A stretch of 10,447 nucleotides of DNA, taken from Candidatus Aminicenantota bacterium (GTDB taxonomy: Bacteria; Acidobacteriota; Aminicenantia; Aminicenantales; Aminicenantaceae). Position 1 is the first letter of the stretch; every line of letters begins with the position of its first letter. A program made the position numbers and the translations under genes. The stretch is taken from positions 1 to 10,447 of the forward strand of contig JAFGNQ010000474.1 in NCBI GenBank assembly GCA_016926925.1. The letters are read 5' to 3'. The notes beneath the pieces are model-generated. The model did not search any database, was not told where the DNA came from, and worked only from the letters and a program-made list of their open reading frames with translations. This document shows positions 1-9,994 of this stretch, one piece after another.

Positions 1-118
1 ATCGCTTAAGCCGTTTTTTCAAATCAGGCGTAGGTAGGATGCGTGATAATTTGTTAAATTTGGTATATATATACAGTTCGTGCCTTAAATTCAGATGGGC
101 GATGAAGGAGAAAGCTGT
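1..118. other. 5' leader and intergenic sequence before the first permease
   Basis: No gene is supported here. The stretch is AT-rich and holds an alternating TA run at 64-73, which could serve as a -10 region, but no -35 hexamer at proper spacing could be matched to it. An ATG at 95 is in frame with the permease but has no Shine-Dalgarno before it. The AAGGAG at 105-110 points instead to the TTG at 119. Confidence 0.4.
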
Positions 119-1558
119 TTGAACAATTCAAAAGGATATGGGGAAAAAACAGCGGGTCTTCTGCGGCAGCTCGGGTTGTTCGATTCCACCATGATTATGG
201 TCGGGATCGTTATCGGCTCCGGGATATTCCTCACGACAGGGATCATGGCCAAATCCATTCCCTCACCCGGGTTGATCTTGCTGGCTTGGGTTGTAGGCGG
301 GCTCCTGACACTGGCAGGAGCATTGACTTTTGCAGAGCTCGGAGCCGCGATGCCCGAAGCAGGCGGCCAATATGTTTATCTGAGAGAAGCCTACGGCCCG
401 ATGGCCGGATTTCTGTTCGGTTGGATTCTGTTTCTCGTCTACCTGACAGGCGGGATCGCTGCTTTGGCCGTGGCTTTTGCGGAGTATTTCGGCTATTTTT
501 TCCCGGCTCTATCCATCCAGAAAGAATTCTTTTCCACAACAGTGAATGTCTTCAATCACTCATTCACATATTCCGTTTCCACGGGACAATTGATTGGCTT
601 GGCGGCCATTATCCTTCTGACCCTGTTTAATTTTTTCGGTGTGGCCTTCGGGAAGTTGATTCAGAACATACTCACTTTGGTCAAAATAGGCACTTTGCTT
701 GCCATCGTCGTTCTGGGATTTGCTATTGGAAAAGGTACTGCCGTCCGGTTTTCGTTGAATCCCTCCGGTGTGAATTTCAGCCAGCTTGTCATCGGATTCG
801 GTGTGGCTCTGGTTGCCGTTTCCTGGGCCTTTGACGGCTGGAACAATATCAACTTTGTCGCAGGCGAGATCAAAAACCCCAGGCGCAATCTTCCCCTTGC
901 TCTTTTTTTGGGAACTCTGATTCTGACTGTTCTCTATGTCCTGACCAATTATATCTATCTTTATGCTCTGCCCATCGAGGAAATGACCGGAGTGGTCAGG
1001 ATTGCGGAAAAGGCGACTTCTGTTATGTTCGGAGGAGCTACGGCAGCAGTGATTTCGGCGGCGGTTATGGTTTCTGCCTTCGGCTCTCTGAATGGAACAA
1101 TATTGGCCGGGCCTCGTGTTTATTATGCTATGGCCCAAGATAAGCTTTTTTTCCGCAGAGTGGCAAAAGTGCATCCTCGATTCCATACTCCCGGTTTCGC
1201 ATTGCTCATTCAGGCCGTATGGGCATCCATTTTGACCCTGAGCGGCTCTTTTGAACAGCTCTTTACGTTTGCGATGTTCATAGCGATCATCTTCTGGATC
1301 ACCGCGGCGGCAGCAGTCTTTACTCTGAGAAAAAAATATCCGGAACTTCCCAGACCCTATAAAACTTGGGGCTATCCATTTGTCCCGATCATTTTCATTG
1401 TCGCATCGTTCGGCATTTTGATAAACACCTTGATCGAAAAGCCTGTCGCATCACTGGCCGGGCTCGGGTTTACAGCTTTGGGTATTCCGGTCTATTATTA
1501 CTGGAAACGGAAGAAATCTCGTGAGGATCCGGATATCCGAATTCAGACTCAATCCTGA
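119..1558 (+). CDS. APC superfamily amino acid permease, L-type (LAT/SteT-like)
   Basis: Inner-membrane secondary transporter, predicted to carry amino acids as antiporter or symporter; the substrate cannot be read from sequence. I chose the TTG at 119 (479 aa) because AAGGAG at 105-110 lies 8 nt before it, while the in-frame ATG at 95 has no ribosome binding site. About twelve hydrophobic segments are visible. TM1 carries the classical unwound-helix motif GSGIF (residues 33-37), which in APC transporters binds the substrate carboxylate. FAELG follows at 71-75. The strongly LAT/SteT-like block FDGWNN...EIKNPRRNLP spans 238-259. The C-terminus is a short basic then polar tail (WKRKK...). Length is normal for the family. 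It opens a co-directional gene set; the next ORF begins 56 bp downstream with no terminator seen. It differs clearly from the other three permeases of the window, which lack GSGIF. Confidence 0.9.
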   Translation: MNNSKGYGEKTAGLLRQLGLFDSTMIMVGIVIGSGIFLTTGIMAKSIPSPGLILLAWVVGGLLTLAGALTFAELGAAMPEAGGQYVYLREAYGPMAGFLFGWILFLVYLTGGIAALAVAFAEYFGYFFPALSIQKEFFSTTVNVFNHSFTYSVSTGQLIGLAAIILLTLFNFFGVAFGKLIQNILTLVKIGTLLAIVVLGFAIGKGTAVRFSLNPSGVNFSQLVIGFGVALVAVSWAFDGWNNINFVAGEIKNPRRNLPLALFLGTLILTVLYVLTNYIYLYALPIEEMTGVVRIAEKATSVMFGGATAAVISAAVMVSAFGSLNGTILAGPRVYYAMAQDKLFFRRVAKVHPRFHTPGFALLIQAVWASILTLSGSFEQLFTFAMFIAIIFWITAAAAVFTLRKKYPELPRPYKTWGYPFVPIIFIVASFGILINTLIEKPVASLAGLGFTALGIPVYYYWKRKKSREDPDIRIQTQS

Positions 1559-1614: not shown

Positions 1615-1737
1615 ATGACAGAAATTTATAACCTCGATCAAATCAAACAAACCCTCAAAATCCTGGAGACCATCCAGGATATTCAAAGCTCAAAGGCTGC
1701 GTACCACGCCTTTTTGGGAAAAAACGATTCTATATAA
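1615..1737 (+). CDS. Small ORF, 40 aa, resembling the N-terminus of ornithine cyclodeaminase/mu-crystallin family proteins
   Basis: A short ORF with strong translation signals: AAGGAG at 1603-1608 lies 6 nt before its ATG, and its TAA stop (1735-1737) overlaps the AAGGAG (1736-1741) of the following BKACE gene, an arrangement suited to translational coupling. The product begins MTEIYNLDQIKQTLKIL and ends AYHAFLGKNDSI; it is mostly amphipathic helix, with no membrane segment or signal peptide. From memory of the family, the pattern IYNL-x-QIK...I..I...AY...GK resembles the first 35 or so residues of ornithine cyclodeaminase/mu-crystallin proteins, which are normally over 300 aa, so this may be the 5' stub of a deleted gene. 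Alternatively it is a free micropeptide or leader peptide. The ORF is clear; its nature is not. Confidence 0.55.
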   Translation: MTEIYNLDQIKQTLKILETIQDIQSSKAAYHAFLGKNDSI

Positions 1738-1748
1738 GGAGAGATCAT

Positions 1749-2819
1749 ATGTCCGACGAAAAAGAGAAAATTGAAAATGCCTATGAATGGATAAAAAAAT
1801 GGACACCGGTGCTGGAAATCATCGATCCCGACACTTACGGTGTCGAAGAGATGCCCATCCTGAAAGAGCCCATCATCCCTACCATGGATAAAAAGGTCAT
1901 CATCGAGGCAGCGATTACGGGCTGGCAGCCTTCCCAGTGGTGGCGGGAGCGGGGTGTGCCGAATTTGCCTCCCGGCTCGAGGGGAGGCGATTCGTGTATT
2001 GAAGAACAGTCCGATGCCATCGTGGAGTGTGTCCGGGCCGGAGCTTCATGCATTCATATGCATCCCCGGCATCCCGATGACGGGAAACCCAGAATGCATG
2101 ATGCCGATCTTACGGCTGAAATCCATGATAGGGCTTTTGAGCAGGTGGATTTCATAACGACCAGCCATTCTTTCAATTATGACTTCCGGAAGAGCATCGC
2201 CATCGATTATGTTACGGGCGCCAAGGATTATCTTGAAAAAGGGGCGGGGAACAGACACGTCCAGGCATCGCTGATCGCAACTCTTGCTTGCTATACGGAG
2301 GACCATCCGGTTGCGACCGATGAATCGAATGTCGAAGGCACGAAATTCTATGAAGAAAATGACATCAAACCTCTGTTTTCAGTAGAGCCGTATTATTTTT
2401 CTCAATTCCAAAGAACCGTGCTGGATACGGGAGCGGCGAAGTGGAAGCCTTACTTTATCGCCCTGCAGTTGGGCAAACATCGCGACGACCTTCAGTTCGC
2501 TGATCCCTATTCCTACCTGAATGTTATCACTTCCATGGGATTGGTCCGGTCTGTGATCAAGGACGAAGATATGGTTTTGGGGATACATCCCGGCGGCCGG
2601 AATTGGCTGCCTGTTTCGGTGGTGGGGCTGCTCTATGGTGCTGAATACATCCGGTTGGGAATCGAAGACATCTTTTTTCTGTGGCCGCATAAGAACGATA
2701 TTCCAAAGAAAACATCTCAGACCGTGGAGATGATTGTCAACCTGTGCAAGGTTCTCGGCAGGGAAGTGGCAACCGTCGATGAAGCTCGGAAAATGCTCGG
2801 CCTCAAACGGACATCGTGA
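1749..2819 (+). CDS. BKACE family beta-keto acid cleavage enzyme (DUF849), long form, copy 1
   Basis: Cytosolic zinc-dependent TIM-barrel enzyme. The family condenses a beta-keto acid with acetyl-CoA to give acetoacetate and a new acyl-CoA; the archetype is 3-keto-5-aminohexanoate cleavage enzyme (Kce) of lysine fermentation. In this 356-aa protein the zinc ligands are visible as HMH (His103, His105) and Glu306 within RLGIED (302-307), which also supplies the catalytic Arg302 and Asp307. The family C-terminus LGREVAT..EAR..LGL is at 336-352. Oddities: about 45 extra N-terminal residues, an insert rich in W, R and G at 59-81 (GWQPSQWWRERG...PPGSRGG), and Gln60 where Kce has Glu14, the residue contacting the substrate amino group. 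AAGGAG lies 7 nt before the ATG. A close paralogue follows 65 bp downstream. The exact substrate is unknown, and naming it Kce would be too specific. Confidence 0.88.
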   Translation: MSDEKEKIENAYEWIKKWTPVLEIIDPDTYGVEEMPILKEPIIPTMDKKVIIEAAITGWQPSQWWRERGVPNLPPGSRGGDSCIEEQSDAIVECVRAGASCIHMHPRHPDDGKPRMHDADLTAEIHDRAFEQVDFITTSHSFNYDFRKSIAIDYVTGAKDYLEKGAGNRHVQASLIATLACYTEDHPVATDESNVEGTKFYEENDIKPLFSVEPYYFSQFQRTVLDTGAAKWKPYFIALQLGKHRDDLQFADPYSYLNVITSMGLVRSVIKDEDMVLGIHPGGRNWLPVSVVGLLYGAEYIRLGIEDIFFLWPHKNDIPKKTSQTVEMIVNLCKVLGREVATVDEARKMLGLKRTS

Positions 2820-2884
2820 ATTGTTTGGCTTTTCAATCACAACCTTAGAGAATAGAATACTGTAAAAAACGGTGAGGAGGAGTC

Positions 2885-3943
2885 ATGATTAAAGACAGAA
2901 AGCCTGATTACAGCTGGATTAAGGAGATGGAACCCATCCACGCTGTCATTGATCCCGAGGAAGAGACCAAGCGTGAGCTCCCTGTTCTTGATGAGCCCAA
3001 GTCCATGACAATGGACAAGAAGGTTATTCTGGAAGCCGCTACAACAGGGTGGCAGCCGACCCGGTGGTGGCGCGAGAGGGGGGAAGAACTTTTGCCTCCG
3101 GGTTCGAGAGGCGGAGAAACCTGCGTTCAGGAGCAGGTGGATGCCATCGTGGAGTGCGTCAAGGCGGGAGCAGCCGGCATCCACACACATCCAAGGCGGG
3201 CTTCGGACGGTCTGCCTGTTTTGCACGAGGCCAAGCTTACTGCTGAAATTTATGATAGGGCTTTCGAGCAAGTCGACTATGTCACTTTCGGACATGCGTT
3301 CACCTGGGATCTCAGGAAGGGGGAGGCTGTCGATTTTGTCGGACCTGCAGAGGAGCTTCTCGAACTCGGAAAAGGAAACAAGTATCTTCAATCCGCCCTT
3401 ATCCCCACTTATGGAAGCCACGAAGAGGGCCGTTTTTGCTACACGGAAGAAGCCATGATTGAAGGTGTGAGGTTTTATGAGGAAAACGACGTCAAGCCTA
3501 TTTGTTCCATAGAACCTTATTTTTTCCCTCAATTCAAGCGGATGATCTTTGACACAGGATTGGCGAAAAAACCCTATCTCATTGCACTCCAGATGGGAAA
3601 ACACGGCGACGACCAGCAGTTTTCGGATCCCTGGTCTTACCTGCAAATGATTACGAACATGGGACTGGTCCGGTCCGCCATTCCCGATGAAGACATGACG
3701 CTCGGTCTTCATCCCGGCGGAAGGAATTGGCTTGCCGTAACGGTCATTGCTCTTCTCAACGGCATCCAGTACATAAGGCTCGGCATCGAGGATATTTTCT
3801 TTCTCTGGCCGCACAAAGATGACATAGCCCATAAGACCTCTCAGACAATCGAAATGATCAAAAACATTTGTGAGCAACTGGGAAGAGAGTTGGCTTCCCC
3901 TCAGGAAGCACGCGAAATCATGGGGATCAAGCTGACATCCTAA
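2885..3943 (+). CDS. BKACE family beta-keto acid cleavage enzyme (DUF849), long form, copy 2
   Basis: A 352-aa paralogue of the preceding gene, clearly more than half identical by eye over its whole length, so a tandem duplicate. Zinc ligands are His100 and His102 (HTH) and Glu302 in RLGIED (298-303), with Arg298 and Asp303 as the catalytic pair by analogy with Kce. It shares the extended N-terminus, the WWRERG...PPGSRGG insert (61-77), Gln57 in the Glu14 position, and the LGRELAS..EAR..MGI tail. The copies differ next to the metal site and substrate pocket: HTHPR against HMHPR, and TFGHAFTWD (134-142) against TTSHSFNYD in copy 1, which suggests different but related substrates. Alternatively they could be subunits of one hetero-oligomer. 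A GAGGAGG-type ribosome binding site sits just before the ATG. No terminator is visible on either side. Confidence 0.88.
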   Translation: MIKDRKPDYSWIKEMEPIHAVIDPEEETKRELPVLDEPKSMTMDKKVILEAATTGWQPTRWWRERGEELLPPGSRGGETCVQEQVDAIVECVKAGAAGIHTHPRRASDGLPVLHEAKLTAEIYDRAFEQVDYVTFGHAFTWDLRKGEAVDFVGPAEELLELGKGNKYLQSALIPTYGSHEEGRFCYTEEAMIEGVRFYEENDVKPICSIEPYFFPQFKRMIFDTGLAKKPYLIALQMGKHGDDQQFSDPWSYLQMITNMGLVRSAIPDEDMTLGLHPGGRNWLAVTVIALLNGIQYIRLGIEDIFFLWPHKDDIAHKTSQTIEMIKNICEQLGRELASPQEAREIMGIKLTS

Positions 3944-4031: not shown

Positions 4032-5462
4032 ATGACTGAAGAGAGAAGATCCTTAGAAAAGGTGATGACGCTCAAAGATTATGTGAGCCTCGGCCTCGGG
4101 ACCATGGTCGGGATATCTTGGGTGGTGTATGCGGGAGTTTGGATTGAAAAGGGAGGGCCGCTGGGTGCGATATTGGGATTCGTATTGGGAGGATCGCTTC
4201 TGATTTACGTGGGGAAATGCTACGCAGAACTGACGCCTGCTATCCCTGTATCAGGAGGAGGCATGGCCTTCGCCTACAAAGCCTTCGGAACCGGAACGGG
4301 CTTTTTTGTGGGCTGGCTGCTCGCTTTTCTATACATCAACGTCAATCCGTTTCTCACAGTCGCCATCGGATGGCTCTTCGAATACGTCTTCCCTTTTGCT
4401 AAGACGCCGCCGCTTTACACAGTCGGTGGATACGCCGTCACTCTGTCCTCGTTTCTTTCGGGAGCTGTAGTGGCGCTTGTTATCATCGTCATGAATTTCC
4501 GCGGAGCCAAGTTGAGTGCCCGATTCCAGACGTATTCCACCGGTCTCATGCTCATCTGTGCGGCTGTTTTCGTTGTCCTCGCCCTTATAAAGGGAAGCTT
4601 TTCAAACCTGATCCCGCTTTTTGCCGGTGAGGGAACCCTTTTGTCTTCCCTCAGTGCCACCGTCGCGGTGGTGGCCATCGTTCCCTATTTTATGGCCGGG
4701 TTCGACACGATCTCCCAAGCAGCCGAAGAGTCGGGCAAGAAGATGAACCCCAGAGATTTAGGGAAGGCCATCATCATTTCCATTGCTGCGGGTTTTGTTT
4801 TCTACACATTTATCATATTGGCCATTTCTCTCTGCCTGCCTTGGAAAGAGGCCATTACCTATGATATGCCCACAGCCACGGTCTTCAAGGTCGCTTTCGG
4901 GTACGATTGGGCAGCCAAGCTGGTTTTGTTCACTGCGTTCCTCGGTCTGATCACCTCACTGAACGGTTGTGTTCTTGCCGGCTCGCGGGTTTTGTTTGCG
5001 TTGAGCCGCGGCGGCCTGATTTCCAAGTGGTTCGGCGGAACGAGTGACAAGTACCATACTCCGAAAAATGCGCTTCTGATTGTCGGAGGCCTGACCTTAG
5101 CAGGTCCTTTTGTGGGAAGGTCGCTGCTCACGCCTGTTGTCAATGTCGGCTCCCTGGCCTTCATGGCTGCCGGAGTGATTACCTGTTATGCCGTCATCGC
5201 CCTAAGGAAAAAAGCCCCTGATATGATACGGCCTTATAAAATCCGCTACAGGTCGACGATGTTTATAGGAGTCGTTATCTCATTCATTCTCGTTCTGCTC
5301 TTGGTAGTCCCCAAGTCTCCCAGCCAACTGCGGTGGCCGGTTGAGTATCTCATTTTTAGTGCCTGGCTTCTTTTCGGATTCATTGCCTTCCGGCTGCGGC
5401 AAAGAAAAAAGGATATGAACAAGAAGGAGCGTGACTATCAGATTCTGGGAATAAAAGGTTGA
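4032..5462 (+). CDS. APC superfamily permease, divergent subfamily, copy A
   Basis: A 476-aa inner-membrane transporter with about twelve hydrophobic segments. TM1 reads GLGTMVGISW (21-30), replacing the usual GSGIF motif, and is followed by the subfamily block GGPLGA (41-46) and CYAEL..AIPV.GG (63-76). TM6 carries MAGFDTISQAAEES (221-234), and the cytosolic C-terminus ends KERDYQILG plus four residues. These features recur in the permeases at 6401-7852 and 8549-9994. The start is bounded by an in-frame stop at 4017-4019; AAGG at 4022-4025 lies 6 nt before the ATG. A 7-codon TTG mini-ORF with a stronger AAGGAG at 4001-4006 ends just inside this gene. Its position after two BKACE genes suggests import of their substrate or its precursor; the substrate itself is unknown. 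Confidence 0.88.
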   Translation: MTEERRSLEKVMTLKDYVSLGLGTMVGISWVVYAGVWIEKGGPLGAILGFVLGGSLLIYVGKCYAELTPAIPVSGGGMAFAYKAFGTGTGFFVGWLLAFLYINVNPFLTVAIGWLFEYVFPFAKTPPLYTVGGYAVTLSSFLSGAVVALVIIVMNFRGAKLSARFQTYSTGLMLICAAVFVVLALIKGSFSNLIPLFAGEGTLLSSLSATVAVVAIVPYFMAGFDTISQAAEESGKKMNPRDLGKAIIISIAAGFVFYTFIILAISLCLPWKEAITYDMPTATVFKVAFGYDWAAKLVLFTAFLGLITSLNGCVLAGSRVLFALSRGGLISKWFGGTSDKYHTPKNALLIVGGLTLAGPFVGRSLLTPVVNVGSLAFMAAGVITCYAVIALRKKAPDMIRPYKIRYRSTMFIGVVISFILVLLLVVPKSPSQLRWPVEYLIFSAWLLFGFIAFRLRQRKKDMNKKERDYQILGIKG

Positions 5463-5579: not shown

Positions 5580-6338
5580 ATGAGCAATGTTGTCGTCACA
5601 GCCGGAGGAGGAGGTCTTGGCCGTGTTATAGCTGAGGTCTTTTTGTCGGCAGGGCATAATGTGCATATCTGTGATGTCGATGCGGATGCAGTCGCACAAA
5701 CCTTGAAAGAGAATCCGGGACTGCGCGGGACCGTGACCGATGTGGGGGACCGGGAGCAAATCAGGGCGATGTTCAAGGAAGCCCGTGCTTGGATGGATCA
5801 TGTAGAGATTCTTGTCAACAATGTCGGTATTGCCGGGCCGCGCGCACCGATCGAGGAGATGCCCGAAGACGAGTGGCAAAAGACCATCGATACTAACTTG
5901 AACAGCAGTTTCTGGAGTATGAAAGAAGTGCTGCCCGAAATGAAGGCACGCAGGAACGGCGTGATTATAAACATAACGACTTCATCAACCAAGACTTTTC
6001 CAGCCAACCGTTCGATCTATAACATGACGAAGTATGCTCTGGAGGGATTGACTTTGACCGTGGCCAAAGAGGTCGGTCCTTTCTCCATACGCTGCAATGC
6101 AGTCAGACCCGGCATGATGAACAACGAACGGATGCGCCGTGTCCTTAGAAAAGTCGCGGCAGATCTCGGACGGACTGAAGAAGATGTATTGGAAGGGGAG
6201 CTGAAGTACATTTCCATGCGTTCCATGGTGGAGATGAAGGAAGTGGCTGATATGGTTTTTTTTCTTGCTTCCGAGGCTGCCAGTCATGTTACTGGCCAGA
6301 TCATCGCCGTCGACGGCAACGCTGAGTACGAAACCTGA
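5580..6338 (+). CDS. Short-chain dehydrogenase/reductase (classical SDR), probably NAD(H)-dependent
   Basis: A 252-aa cytosolic Rossmann-fold oxidoreductase of usual classical-SDR length. The dinucleotide loop is TAGGGGLG (7-14), with Ala in place of the first Gly of TGxxxGxG. The acidic CDVD (31-34) after beta2 predicts NAD rather than NADP. NNVG is at 80-83, the catalytic Asn region TNL at 105-107, and the active-site pair Tyr147/Lys151 lies in YNMTK. By spacing from Tyr147 the catalytic Ser falls on Thr134, with Ser135 and Ser136 adjacent. The P-G motif RPGMMN is at 176-181 and the C-terminal VTGQ..AVDG at 237-246 is normal. AAGGAG (5568-5573) lies 6 nt before the ATG. In this context it may interconvert a beta-hydroxy and a beta-keto acid feeding the BKACE reaction; that is inference, as SDR substrates are not readable from sequence. 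Confidence 0.88.
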   Translation: MSNVVVTAGGGGLGRVIAEVFLSAGHNVHICDVDADAVAQTLKENPGLRGTVTDVGDREQIRAMFKEARAWMDHVEILVNNVGIAGPRAPIEEMPEDEWQKTIDTNLNSSFWSMKEVLPEMKARRNGVIINITTSSTKTFPANRSIYNMTKYALEGLTLTVAKEVGPFSIRCNAVRPGMMNNERMRRVLRKVAADLGRTEEDVLEGELKYISMRSMVEMKEVADMVFFLASEAASHVTGQIIAVDGNAEYET

Positions 6339-6342
6339 AGTC

Positions 6343-6402
6343 AAAAAGGAGACAGGCCATTTTTTCCTGAGGTGAACGGAAAAATTGCCTGTCCCCTTTT
6401 TT
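6343..6402. terminator. Bidirectional rho-independent terminator / interspersed-repeat-like palindrome
   Basis: Two arms of about 24-25 nt (6343-6367 and 6378-6401) pair around a 10-nt loop, with one A-C mismatch and one bulge. The left arm carries GGAGACAGGC and the right arm GCCTGTCCCC. T runs follow the hairpin in both directions, which suits the convergent SDR (plus) and permease (minus) genes it separates. The mismatch becomes a G-U pair in the minus-strand transcript. Its right edge touches the stop codon of the minus-strand permease. Its unusual length and GGGGACAGGC core also resemble dispersed palindromes I recall from other bacterial genomes. Confidence 0.85.
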
Positions 6403-7852
6403 AACGGTATTCACCAAGGATCTGATAGTCGCGCTCTTCTTTGGTCAGGTCCCCCCTGTGCTTTCGCCACCTATAACCCATATAACCGAAAATCATCCAG
6501 CCCGCTAATATGGCATATTCAAGCGGCCATTTAAGCTGTGCGGATGATCCGGGAGTGACAATAAGGAGAATCAAAACTGCGGATATGACAACACCCGCAT
6601 ACATCGTCATTTTGGATTTCACCATGTAGGGTCGATTCATATTAGGCGCGGCTTTTCTCAATTTTAACGTTACGAGACATGTGACCAGCCAAGCGCACAT
6701 ATAAGCCAGTGAACTGACATTGACGATGGGCAGGATGACCGCCTTCCCGATGAACGGTCCGATCAATGCGATCGCTCCCGCGAAGAGAATGGCGTTTTTA
6801 GGGGTTTTGTGTTTTTTGCTGATTTCCCCGAACCAATGGGGCATGAGTCCGCCTCTTCCGGAAGCGAAGAGGACTCTTGTGGCAGCTAGGTAGATGCCGT
6901 TGAGAGATGTGACCAACCCCAAGAACCCTGTGATCAAGACCAGCTTCGTTACCCATACATATCCGAATGCAGCCTGAAAAACACCCGCCGAAGGCATCTC
7001 CAGTTTGACGGCTTCTTTCCAGGGCATACAGGATGAAACTCCCAAAATCACTATGCAGTAGAACAAAGACCCGATGACGATGGAGAGGACAATGGCCTTT
7101 CCAAGCTTTTTAGGCTCGACTTTTTCACCGGACTCTTCTGCGACCTGGGGTATGGTATCGAAACCCGCCATGAAGAAGGGAACCATTCCCAAAATGGCGA
7201 CTGTAGACCACAATCCTCCTTTGAATGTTTCACCGGCGGAGAATACCGGCTTCAAGTTGGACAAATCACCTTTGAAGACTGCAACAATTGTGAAGACCAG
7301 CGCACAGGCAATGAGCAACATCATGGATATCAACTGGAACTTTGCGGAATTTTTGACTCCGAGATAGTTCAAGATGATAATGAATATACCTACCGCCAGC
7401 CCGGGGATGAGGGTAGAAAAACTTATATCGTATCCACCGATGGAGTAAAGCGGTGCCGATCTTAATCCGGGAAAGAGCAGCTCGAACAGCCAGCCGAGGG
7501 ATGTCGTTTCGAAGGGACCGAGGAAGACATAGCCGAAGGCTAAAAACCACCCGGTCATAAAGGCCGTACCTGTGCCGAATGCCTTGTAGGCAAAGGCCAC
7601 CTCTCCACCGGCGACCGGAATGGCCGGCGTGAGCTCTGCGTAGCATTTCCCGATGGTTATGATCAGCATCCCCCCAATGAAGAAACCGAGAGCAGTGCCT
7701 AAAGGCCCCCCTTTGTTGAGCCATTCTCCCGCTACGAGAATCCACCCCACTCCAATGATGCTGCCCAAACCGATCGTGACATAATCCCAGTAAGAGACAA
7801 CCTTAGCCAAGGATTTTCTCTCGTGCAGTGCATCAAATGCCTTATCACTCAT
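6401..7852 (-). CDS. APC superfamily permease, divergent subfamily, copy B
   Basis: A 483-aa membrane transporter, the closest relative in the window of the permease at 4032-5462. It shares TM1 GLGSIIGVGW (28-37), GGPLG (48-52), CYAELTPAIPVAGG (70-83) followed by AYKAFGTGT, MAGFDTIPQVAEES (228-241) in TM6, and the C-terminal tail ERDYQILG. About twelve hydrophobic segments are present. AAAGG lies 8 nt before the ATG. The small membrane-protein gene ends 36 bp upstream on the same strand, so the two are probably co-transcribed. It converges on the SDR gene across a shared terminator, forming with copy A an inverted pair of paralogues around that SDR. The substrate is unknown; amino acid or a related organic cation/acid is inferred from family and context. 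Confidence 0.88.
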   Translation of the reverse strand: MSDKAFDALHERKSLAKVVSYWDYVTIGLGSIIGVGWILVAGEWLNKGGPLGTALGFFIGGMLIITIGKCYAELTPAIPVAGGEVAFAYKAFGTGTAFMTGWFLAFGYVFLGPFETTSLGWLFELLFPGLRSAPLYSIGGYDISFSTLIPGLAVGIFIIILNYLGVKNSAKFQLISMMLLIACALVFTIVAVFKGDLSNLKPVFSAGETFKGGLWSTVAILGMVPFFMAGFDTIPQVAEESGEKVEPKKLGKAIVLSIVIGSLFYCIVILGVSSCMPWKEAVKLEMPSAGVFQAAFGYVWVTKLVLITGFLGLVTSLNGIYLAATRVLFASGRGGLMPHWFGEISKKHKTPKNAILFAGAIALIGPFIGKAVILPIVNVSSLAYMCAWLVTCLVTLKLRKAAPNMNRPYMVKSKMTMYAGVVISAVLILLIVTPGSSAQLKWPLEYAILAGWMIFGYMGYRWRKHRGDLTKEERDYQILGEYR

Positions 7853-8095: not shown

Positions 8096-8195
8096 GCTTC
8101 CTCACAAGCATCTCGTTATTTGTATTGAAGGTAAAAAAAATATTGTTTTGAATAATCTATCAGGATTGTGTCTTTTAGCCAACAGTTTTTTCCTT
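8096..8195. other. AT-rich junction without a supported gene
   Basis: AT-rich sequence lies between the start of the small membrane-protein gene (minus strand) and the beginning of recognisable BKACE homology (plus strand). A weak minus-strand promoter-like pair (a TTGGCT/TAGATT type match with 17-bp spacing) could serve the small gene and permease copy B, but the match is poor. It probably spans a deletion or rearrangement endpoint. Confidence 0.3.
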
Positions 8196-8330
8196 TTCAC
8201 ATTTCCCCACAGAGATGAAATCATTAAATCCAATGCCGATGAAACACATAAGATTGCCAGCGAAGTTAGAGAGCTGGGTCGGGAAATCGCGACTCCTAAG
8301 GAAGCGAGACAGATCATGGGGATCGCTTAA
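8196..8330 (+). pseudogene. 3' remnant of a third BKACE (DUF849) gene
   Basis: On the plus strand, antisense to its neighbours, a frame ending at TAA 8328-8330 encodes about 44 residues containing FPHRDEIIKSNADETHKI and LGREIATPKEARQIMGIA. These match the last 44 or so residues of the two intact BKACEs (WPHK.DI..KTSQT.EMI and LGRE.A...EAR..MGI). The piece starts just past the position of the catalytic RLGIED motif, so it has neither zinc site nor barrel. No start codon with ribosome binding site precedes it, and the sequence upstream changes abruptly to AT-rich DNA. It is best read as the surviving tail of a BKACE gene whose 5' seven-eighths was deleted. The reading frame of the tail is intact, so the loss may be fairly recent. 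Confidence 0.75.
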
Positions 8331-8548: not shown

Positions 8549-9994
8549 TCAAGCCTCATCCTTGGGGGTGCTTCCACCCAGAATCAATTGACGCCTCTCC
8601 TTTTCGCTGATTTGGATGCGGATCTTGCGAGCACCGAACCAGAACAGCAACCCTATAACAGCCCAACCGATGATGATTTTCCATTCCAGAGGAAAAGATC
8701 CCTTGGAATTTGCGTAAGGCTGATAAAGCGAAAGAAAAAAAACGAAGATCGAAATCACACAACCGAATGACGCCGTAATTTTTCCGCCGGGAACACGGTA
8801 AGGCCTCGGGCGGTCTGGCTCGCGTCTCCGTAATTTGATCAGGCCAAAACATATCAAAAGATAAGCAAACGTGACACATGTAACGCCGACGTTGAGAATC
8901 GGAACAACGGCGCTTCTTCCCAAAAAAATAGCGAAGAAAGCGATAGTCCCCGCAAAAATGACCGCTATAAACGGTGATCCATGAGATTCATGAACGGATC
9001 CGAATTTCGAGGGGATAATCCTCGCCCTTCCTAAGGCGAAGATCGCCCGGGATGCGGTGATGAAGACCGTGTTCCATGTGGATAGGATACCAAAGAATGC
9101 CGCCAACAGTACGATTTTTGCCATCGTCGGGGAATTGAAGGCGGCTTCAAAAGCGCCTGCGGCAGGAAGCTCGAGTCCCAAAATGGTTTGCCAGGGCGTA
9201 CTCATGGAGGCGGAAAAAATCACCAGCAGATAAAAAATCAGGGCACCTGCGATGGAGAGAACAATGACTTTCCCCACCAATCGCATCGATGCCTGCTCTG
9301 ATTTTTCCTCCATTGTCTGAGGAATGACGTTAAAGCCCGATATGAAGATGGGGGCCATGATAAAAACGGAAGCGATGCCTCCGATCAGAGGCCATGTCTC
9401 GGTTTTTGAAAACAAAGGCTCCAGATTACTCGTATCCCCCCAAAAAATCCCGGCAATGATAAAGACAAGAGACAGGATGATCAGGCCATATGTAAATATT
9501 TCCTGGAATATTACGGCGGCTTTGATGCCGCGATAATTGAGATACGTCAAAAATGCGGTTCCCCCCAGGCCTAAGAGAAGAGTTCCGAGGTGGACCGGGT
9601 CGCCTCCGTTCGAGTAGAGTAGAGGACCTTTCAATGCGGGAAATAGGGTGCCTGCAAGCCAGCCTGCCGAGATGGCTTCAAATGAAACGAATATAGTGAA
9701 ACAAAGAATGAGAAACCAGCCTACAATATAGGAAATTTTAAGTCCGAATATCTCATAGGTGTAAGCAATCTCCGCACCTGCCACAGGAAACATGGTGGCC
9801 ATTTCACCGTAGCAGAGGCCGATGATAAGCATGAGGGACCCTCCGCCGGCAAATCCTATAAGAGCACCTAGAGGACCTGCTTGTTGGAGCCACTCCCCGA
9901 GGACAACCACCCAACCAACCCCTACAATGCATCCAAATCCCAGAACAAAATAGTGCCGCAGTTTGATTCCTTTTTCCAGTTTTTGTGGTGTCAT
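8549..9994 (-). CDS. APC superfamily permease, divergent subfamily, copy C
   Basis: A 481-aa transporter of the same subfamily as copies A and B but the most diverged of the three. TM1 reads GFGCIVGVGW (19-28), with AGPLGA (39-44), CYGEMATMFPVAGAE (61-75), and ISGFNVIPQTMEE (218-230) in TM6. The C-terminal tail is KERRQLILG plus nine polar residues, against KERDYQILG in the others. About twelve hydrophobic helices are present. A GAGAGG-type site lies about 9 nt before the ATG. It diverges from the SDR at 10237 across a 242-bp AT-rich intergenic region. TM6 loses the Asp of GFD (here GFN) and the AEES acidic pair becomes MEEK, so its substrate range may differ from copies A and B. The substrate is unknown. 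Confidence 0.87.
   Translation of the reverse strand: MTPQKLEKGIKLRHYFVLGFGCIVGVGWVVVLGEWLQQAGPLGALIGFAGGGSLMLIIGLCYGEMATMFPVAGAEIAYTYEIFGLKISYIVGWFLILCFTIFVSFEAISAGWLAGTLFPALKGPLLYSNGGDPVHLGTLLLGLGGTAFLTYLNYRGIKAAVIFQEIFTYGLIILSLVFIIAGIFWGDTSNLEPLFSKTETWPLIGGIASVFIMAPIFISGFNVIPQTMEEKSEQASMRLVGKVIVLSIAGALIFYLLVIFSASMSTPWQTILGLELPAAGAFEAAFNSPTMAKIVLLAAFFGILSTWNTVFITASRAIFALGRARIIPSKFGSVHESHGSPFIAVIFAGTIAFFAIFLGRSAVVPILNVGVTCVTFAYLLICFGLIKLRRREPDRPRPYRVPGGKITASFGCVISIFVFFLSLYQPYANSKGSFPLEWKIIIGWAVIGLLFWFGARKIRIQISEKERRQLILGGSTPKDEA

Follow-up and report, generated by a model that had tools for sequence, protein, structure and literature searches.

Two adjacent genes of Candidatus Aminicenantota bacterium encode long-form DUF849/BKACE proteins, BKACE1 (W1) and BKACE2 (W2), within a 10,447-nucleotide stretch of contig JAFGNQ010000474.1 (assembly GCA_016926925.1), hereafter the window. 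We tentatively propose, with a little less than even confidence, that the pair represents a distinct long-form branch of zinc TIM-barrel enzymes with a rebuilt active site, in which the catalytic base has moved and the reaction is possibly non-canonical. Since the zinc site is kept, the mutation-proven base is lost in 99 of the 103 long-form and intermediate proteins compared, and a new set of conserved residues is present, BKACE activity must not be assumed; a retooled zinc enzyme is a better reading than an active canonical BKACE.

Both open reading frames have the coordinates, strand and lengths assigned in a preliminary description of this DNA. Their products, 60% identical in alignment, match the Pfam BKACE profile PF05853 (E 6e-23 for BKACE1, 7e-21 for BKACE2) with scores above its curated cut-off, which together with the TIM-barrel fold places them in the DUF849/BKACE superfamily. 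The fold was predicted for BKACE1, whose model best matches the Paracoccus BKACE and Kce, the match beginning at about residue 43–47; the TIM-barrel reading of BKACE2 derives from the Pfam profile. Both proteins carry the metal site of canonical BKACEs, His-x-His and Glu accompanied by Arg and Asp: H103, H105, E306, R302 and D307 align (MAFFT) with Kce H46, H48, E230, R226 and D231, as the preliminary description had it.

A set of 142 sequences was aligned with MAFFT and placed in a FastTree phylogeny. It contains 97 long forms, six intermediates and 39 other family members, the last comprising 28 chosen as matches to the window proteins, eight from genome loci and three from the Protein Data Bank (PDB); a 227-residue fragment (L015) was excluded from tree and counts. 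Local support is 1.0 for the split of the long forms from the other 45 sequences and 0.979 for that between the 103 long forms and intermediates and the 39 others, Kce included. No tree placing both window proteins inside the Kce clade was obtained; FastTree separates both from Kce. The residues of the zinc triad are present in 97/97, 96/97 and 97/97 long forms.

The position of the catalytic base is altered in both proteins. Glu171 is the proposed base of Paracoccus denitrificans BKACE15 (PDB 8RIO, 8RIP, 9HNF): E171L abolishes activity and E171D keeps 5%, as reported in PMC11961710. Tyr173 of this enzyme has been equated with Kce Tyr145 (in PMC12871164), which makes Glu171 the counterpart of Kce Glu143. 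By hhalign of profiles and by MAFFT over the 142 sequences, this position holds Ser in both window proteins (Ser211 of BKACE1, Ser208 of BKACE2), and the Kce Tyr145 position holds Glu (Glu213 and Glu210, respectively); the preliminary description had overlooked both changes. Neither protein thus possesses the catalytic Glu of canonical BKACEs (Kce 143, Paracoccus 171). The intermediates, which are easier to align, agree, with PE-Y-Q, AE-F-Q or VE-L-S against PE-V-E in Kce. Among the long forms the position is occupied by Ser (64), Gln (16), Ala (7), Glu (4), Asn (3) or Lys (3), and among the intermediates by Gln (5) or Ser (1), whereas 34 of the 39 others have Glu. A Fisher test of Glu at this position in the clade against the others gives p 5e-23, a descriptive value only, because the sequences are related. 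With the Glu that is needed in Paracoccus BKACE15 replaced by Ser, the earlier expectation that the pair should be active as BKACEs is unsupported.

The Kce Tyr145 position is a poor test of canonical character: Glu stands there in both window proteins, and the others have mostly Phe (28/39) and less often Tyr (8/39). PMC12871164 states that all BKACEs have Tyr at this position; contrary to this, the Phe-bearing proteins include RaKce (3C6C, Ralstonia) and BsfD. In 14 of the 97 long forms, which have a QLYD-type motif, one extra residue (Tyr in 12, Phe in 2) can be placed opposite Tyr145. Three short DUF849 proteins (P0070, P0077, P0080) lack both Kce Glu143 and the zinc ligand Glu230 and represent another divergent type.

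Several residues are newly fixed, or nearly so, in the branch. His244 is found in 94/97 long forms and 6/6 intermediates versus 2/39 others, and Trp286 in 97/97 and 6/6 versus 1/39; Asn285 is present in 97/97 long forms and five of the six intermediates. Pro313 and His314 occur in all 103 proteins (3/39 and 2/39 others, respectively), and His140 occurs in 96/97 long forms and is absent from the intermediates. In the predicted model, Ser211 would lie in strand 5, and the newly fixed residues would follow strands 3, 6, 7 and 8 at their C-terminal ends. The C-terminal side of the strands is the catalytic side in TIM barrels.

Coenzyme A (CoA) use by the long-form proteins appears likely from the alignment. 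In BsfD, Arg226 and Lys254 contact the CoA adenosine, according to PMC12871164, and they align with Arg284 (97/97 long forms) and Lys/Arg315 (96/97). This near-invariance argues against a zinc enzyme working without CoA, whether lyase, decarboxylase or hydrolase, in the manner of the non-BKACE members of DUF849: groups G6/G7 of Bastard et al. (PMC4922564) and the D-tartrate-forming cis-epoxysuccinate hydrolase CESH[D] (PDB 5ZMU, 5ZMY). These, like BsfD (PMC12871164), are described as having other chemistries. CESH[D], with catalytic residues Asp115, Glu190 and Arg11, is reported to have two of the three Kce zinc ligands, whereas the window proteins keep the third, Glu; we consider a CoA-independent enzyme unlikely.

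We suggest the following scheme for the retooled enzyme. In keeping with the rest of the family, a zinc ion liganded by two His and a single Glu would bind its substrate, a beta-keto or related acid, through the acid and keto oxygens, while the fixed Arg284 and the basic residue 315 would probably still hold a CoA ester. In place of Kce Glu143, a residue specific to the branch may take the proton; His244, which follows strand 6, is the likeliest candidate, with His314 as the alternative. Overall, the pair would carry out carbon–carbon bond chemistry on an acid that the adjacent short-chain dehydrogenase/reductase (SDR) supplies, and this chemistry need not be the canonical exchange, in which acetyl-CoA and a beta-keto acid yield acyl-CoA and acetoacetate. 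A broader version of this proposal, which we hold more tentatively still, is that, in a clade of at least 103 proteins, the catalytic Glu has been lost nearly throughout, a new His from a different strand has become the base and the reaction is one so far undescribed for the fold, and that the window operon contains two specificities fed by the SDR and amino-acid permeases.

The preliminary description saw the pair as ordinary BKACEs with another substrate; the same acetyl-CoA-dependent exchange would then proceed with Glu213 or His244 standing in for Glu143. The retained zinc triad, R302 and D307 agree with this view, and the predicted BKACE1 model has the Paracoccus BKACE and Kce as its best matches. 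CsTAL, a triacetate acetoacetate-lyase, likewise replaces Glu14 of Kce and has another substrate with the reaction type unchanged (by the account in PMC10470551), and earlier papers took the Arg as the base, according to PMC11961710. However, the Glu proven by mutation is missing almost throughout the clade, position 213 varies (Glu 43, Gln 20, His 15 and Asp 15 of 97 long forms), and other residues of the presumed catalytic face differ along with Glu143. We therefore regard an ordinary BKACE as improbable, to about the same degree as the CoA-independent enzyme.

Several observations weigh against our favoured reading of a rebuilt active site. Four long forms inside the branch keep Glu at the Kce 143 position (P0043, P0045, P0047 and a Dehalococcoidia protein of locus L004); they form one branch (local support 0.687). 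Glu213, two residues on from Ser211 and present in 43/97 long forms, could act as a displaced base. The Arg284 position is also Arg in 15/39 others (Pro in 21/39), so that Arg284 is not required for CoA binding generally and may have another role. The placement of the new residues on the catalytic face depends on the strand limits predicted by the model. Finally, gene neighbours vary between relatives, so no fixed pathway emerges.

The preliminary description had centred on Trp-Gln at the position of Kce Ala13-Glu14. This observation stands, being recovered for BKACE1 by phmmer, hhalign and MAFFT and for BKACE2 by MAFFT; no alignment put Glu at the Glu14 position, which is Gln in both proteins. 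The cited role of Glu14 is stated in PMC10470551: it is needed for contact with the 5-amino group of the substrate, and CsTAL, acting on 3,5-dioxohexanoate, has Trp16 there. However, Gln at this position is not what sets the pair apart and was rejected as the key feature, the 39 others having Arg (16), Glu (5), Val (5), Ala (3), Ile (3), Phe (2) and five single residues. Given the CsTAL precedent and the rarity of Glu14 among the others (5/39), its absence argues against the Kce substrate, yet marks nothing unusual. Of the suggested BKACE subgroup with a non-Kce substrate, the separate clade outside Kce is upheld, and the argument from Glu14 is weakened by how common its loss is in the family. 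Neither the Kce equivalog NCBIfam NF052387 (cut-off 382 bits; BKACE1 55.7, BKACE2 48.1 bits) nor the 3,5-dioxohexanoate enzyme family NF053538 (cut-off 430 bits; 55.5 and 51.3 bits) is matched at its cut-off.

Other features pointed out earlier are likewise correct. The N-terminal extension of about 45 residues measures 45 residues in BKACE1 and 42 in BKACE2 before the MDKK domain start, the WWRERG...PPGSRGG insert is in both copies, and the copies do differ in HMH against HTH and TTSHSF against TFGHAF. These features mark only part of the clade: among long forms, Gln60 occurs in 68/97, Trp59 in 78/97, Trp64 in 67/97 and a PPGSRGG-type stretch (Gly76 and Gly80 columns) in 33/97. In a PGH branch of 13/97 long forms, His replaces Trp59 (e.g., P0103, L005 and L002:3417-4505); the L005 member is directly followed by a 3HCDH-type dehydrogenase.

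Relative to Kce, the window proteins change Glu14 to Gln, Glu143 to Ser and Tyr145 to Glu, and they add the 42–45-residue extension, the insert, His244, Asn285-Trp286 and Pro313-His314. CsTAL shares with them the lack of Glu14 (Trp instead), but most of its other pocket residues match Kce, a comparison made from the description in PMC10470551. BsfD, from flavophos biosynthesis (PDB 9ZSC), is reported as a DUF849 protein with divergent chemistry, and its CoA-contact Arg/Lys positions are kept here. It differs in retaining Glu164 (Kce 143) with Phe at 145, and the column of Arg91, in its 20-residue loop, is a gap in 97/97 long forms. A literature search, which did not cover Bellinzoni 2011 or Bastard 2014, found no published description of the long-form branch, so that its absence from the literature is unproven.

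W1 falls in a clade of 21 (local support 0.982) and W2 in a sister clade of seven (0.927), joined at 0.999, which points to an old duplication. Seven positions are fixed differently without overlap between the two subclades, four of them in the barrel: 108 (His/Arg), 146 (Phe/Leu), 179 and 245 (Arg/Gly), the last adjoining His244. Residue 104, between the zinc His, is Met (20/21) or Leu (1/21) in the W1 subclade and Thr, Ile or Val (7/7) in the W2 subclade. The earlier proposal of two specificities in one operon is compatible with this sequence pattern, notably with the fixed differences at 108 and 245.

A purine-rich, ribosome-binding-like stretch precedes each of the two genes, which are separated by 65 bases (Table 1). 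A pattern scan of the window found six promoter-like sites (shuffled mean 4.5, sd 2.0), about the chance level, and ten terminator-like sites (mean 6.0, sd 2.6), somewhat above it, so that the case for an operon comes solely from gene spacing. An amino or ammonium acid substrate is hinted at, no more, by the permeases. Three of them (4032-5462, 6401-7852 and 8549-9994) share 35–54% mutual identity, the gene at 95-1558 is a more distant fourth, and all lie within 10 kb. The window SDR has 11 close relatives at 70–87% identity, after which identity falls to ~55%. The orthologues of BKACE2 (P0025, 93%) and of the SDR (P0118, 82%) are each recorded with a longest contig of 318,583 bases, so linkage of the two genes has probably been kept. 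A short open reading frame (1615-1737, plus strand; 40 residues and stop) with a good ribosome-binding-like site ends 11 bases 5' of BKACE1. Its assignment as an ornithine cyclodeaminase N-terminus was dropped as unsupported by PDB sequences (to E 10) or Pfam (to E 1), though not disproved.

Table 1. Features of the window and of the two long-form proteins.
Feature	Position	Strand	Basis
APC permease, upstream of BKACE1	95..1558	+	PF13520, E 1.7e-65
BKACE1 (W1), long-form DUF849 protein, 356 aa	1749..2819	+	Intact reading frame
Residues 1-45 of BKACE1 (N-terminal extension), largely beyond the aligned barrel	1749..1883	+	Start of fold match; alignment
Trp59-Gln60 of BKACE1 (Kce Ala13-Glu14)	1923..1928	+	phmmer, hhalign, MAFFT
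WWRERG...PPGSRGG insert, residues 64-80 of BKACE1	1938..1988	+	Alignments
Zinc ligands His103-Met-His105 of BKACE1	2055..2063	+	His103 97/97, His105 96/97 long forms
Ser211-Val-Glu213 of BKACE1 (Kce Glu143/Tyr145 positions)	2379..2387	+	hhalign, MAFFT
His244 of BKACE1, almost invariant in the clade, predicted just after strand beta-6 (strand 235-242)	2478..2480	+	Alignment counts; predicted model
Arg284-Asn285-Trp286 of BKACE1; Arg284 aligns with BsfD Arg226	2598..2606	+	Alignment counts; PMC12871164
Glu306 (zinc ligand) and Asp307 of BKACE1	2664..2669	+	Alignment counts
Pro313-His314-Lys315 of BKACE1; Pro-His fixed in the clade	2685..2693	+	103/103 for Pro and His
BKACE2 (W2), paralogue of BKACE1, 352 aa	2885..3943	+	Intact reading frame; PF05853, E 7e-21; alignment
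Gln57 of BKACE2 (Kce Glu14 position)	3053..3055	+	Alignment, MAFFT
Ser208-Ile-Glu210 of BKACE2 (Kce Glu143/Tyr145 positions)	3506..3514	+	Alignments, MAFFT
APC amino-acid permease, 88 bases 3' of BKACE2	4032..5462	+	PF13520, E 4e-41; spacing
SDR dehydrogenase with YxxxK motif, 117 bases after the 4032-5462 permease; candidate 3-keto acid maker	5580..6338	+	PF13561, E 1e-49; motif; homologues
C-terminal remnant of a third long-form copy	8175..8330	+	PF05853, 25 bits; tblastn ~52-57% over 44 aa to P0105, P0103, P0104, P0097

The truncated third copy raises the question of whether the cluster is shedding genes and the pair is itself decaying or already inactive. With both reading frames intact, the clade's fixed residues kept, and full-length relatives at 89% (BKACE1) and 93% (BKACE2) identity, decay is very improbable. 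The remnant is closest to the PGH-type branch and is flanked by two minus-strand permease genes.

The clade comprises at least 103 DUF849 proteins from Chloroflexota, Bathyarchaeota, Acidobacteriota, Betaproteobacteria and one haloarchaeon, several of them named 3-keto-5-aminohexanoate cleavage protein. Homologue names include Acidobacteriota (P0003 and P0006, at 74 and 73% identity), Anaerolineales, Chloroflexota, Bathyarchaeia, Crenarchaeota and Haladaptatus. A scan of genome contigs with two peptide patterns gave six loci. In whole-genome searches, whose counts include the centre genome, the group turned up in 1/400 genomes of the G002 phylum, Chloroflexi (at an E limit of 1e-60), and, at E 1e-50, in 2/156 of the order of G003, 2/256 of the class of G001, 1/2 of the family of G002 and 4/98 of the family of G005, where two of the four (G796 and G797) have intermediates only. 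The group looks rare and scattered. Plasmid records gave 18 matches to BKACE1 at 23–30% identity and one to P0053 at 28%, which were not used.

No common operon partner was found among the relatives' loci examined (L001–L006, L052, L053), where nine neighbours were named by Pfam and the rest by eye. The neighbours include fumarase, malic enzyme and 3HCDH (L001); M24 peptidase, UbiD and binding proteins (L002); SDR, aldo-keto reductase, an enolase-type protein and PrpD (L003); PGK, TIM and other housekeeping genes (L004); 3HCDH (L005); Bug-type binding proteins (L006); a Tct transporter and others (L052); and a hydantoinase-type protein (L053). Three relatives have a neighbouring dehydrogenase that could produce a 3-keto acid: an SDR in the case of L003, and 3HCDH-type enzymes for L001 and for L005, where the gene follows immediately. 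The route proposed for deoxyribonate in Pseudomonas simiae, described in PMC6365646, pairs an SDR with an adjacent BKACE that cleaves the SDR product. Paired long forms also occur elsewhere: L006 has two convergent copies, L002 has two ~5.5 kb apart, and P0003 and P0006 both list a 19,487-base contig, a further genome with two close copies.

Efforts to predict substrates and reactions from active-site residues have used the DUF849/BKACE family as a test bed, and a designed CO2-reduction cycle employs one of its members, as reported in PMC11961710. Ser211, His244, His314 and Asn285 provide a short list of directly testable residues. A branch retaining the metal but not the proven base would make family membership an unsafe guide to naming in this case, and the family name may misstate the function of these proteins.
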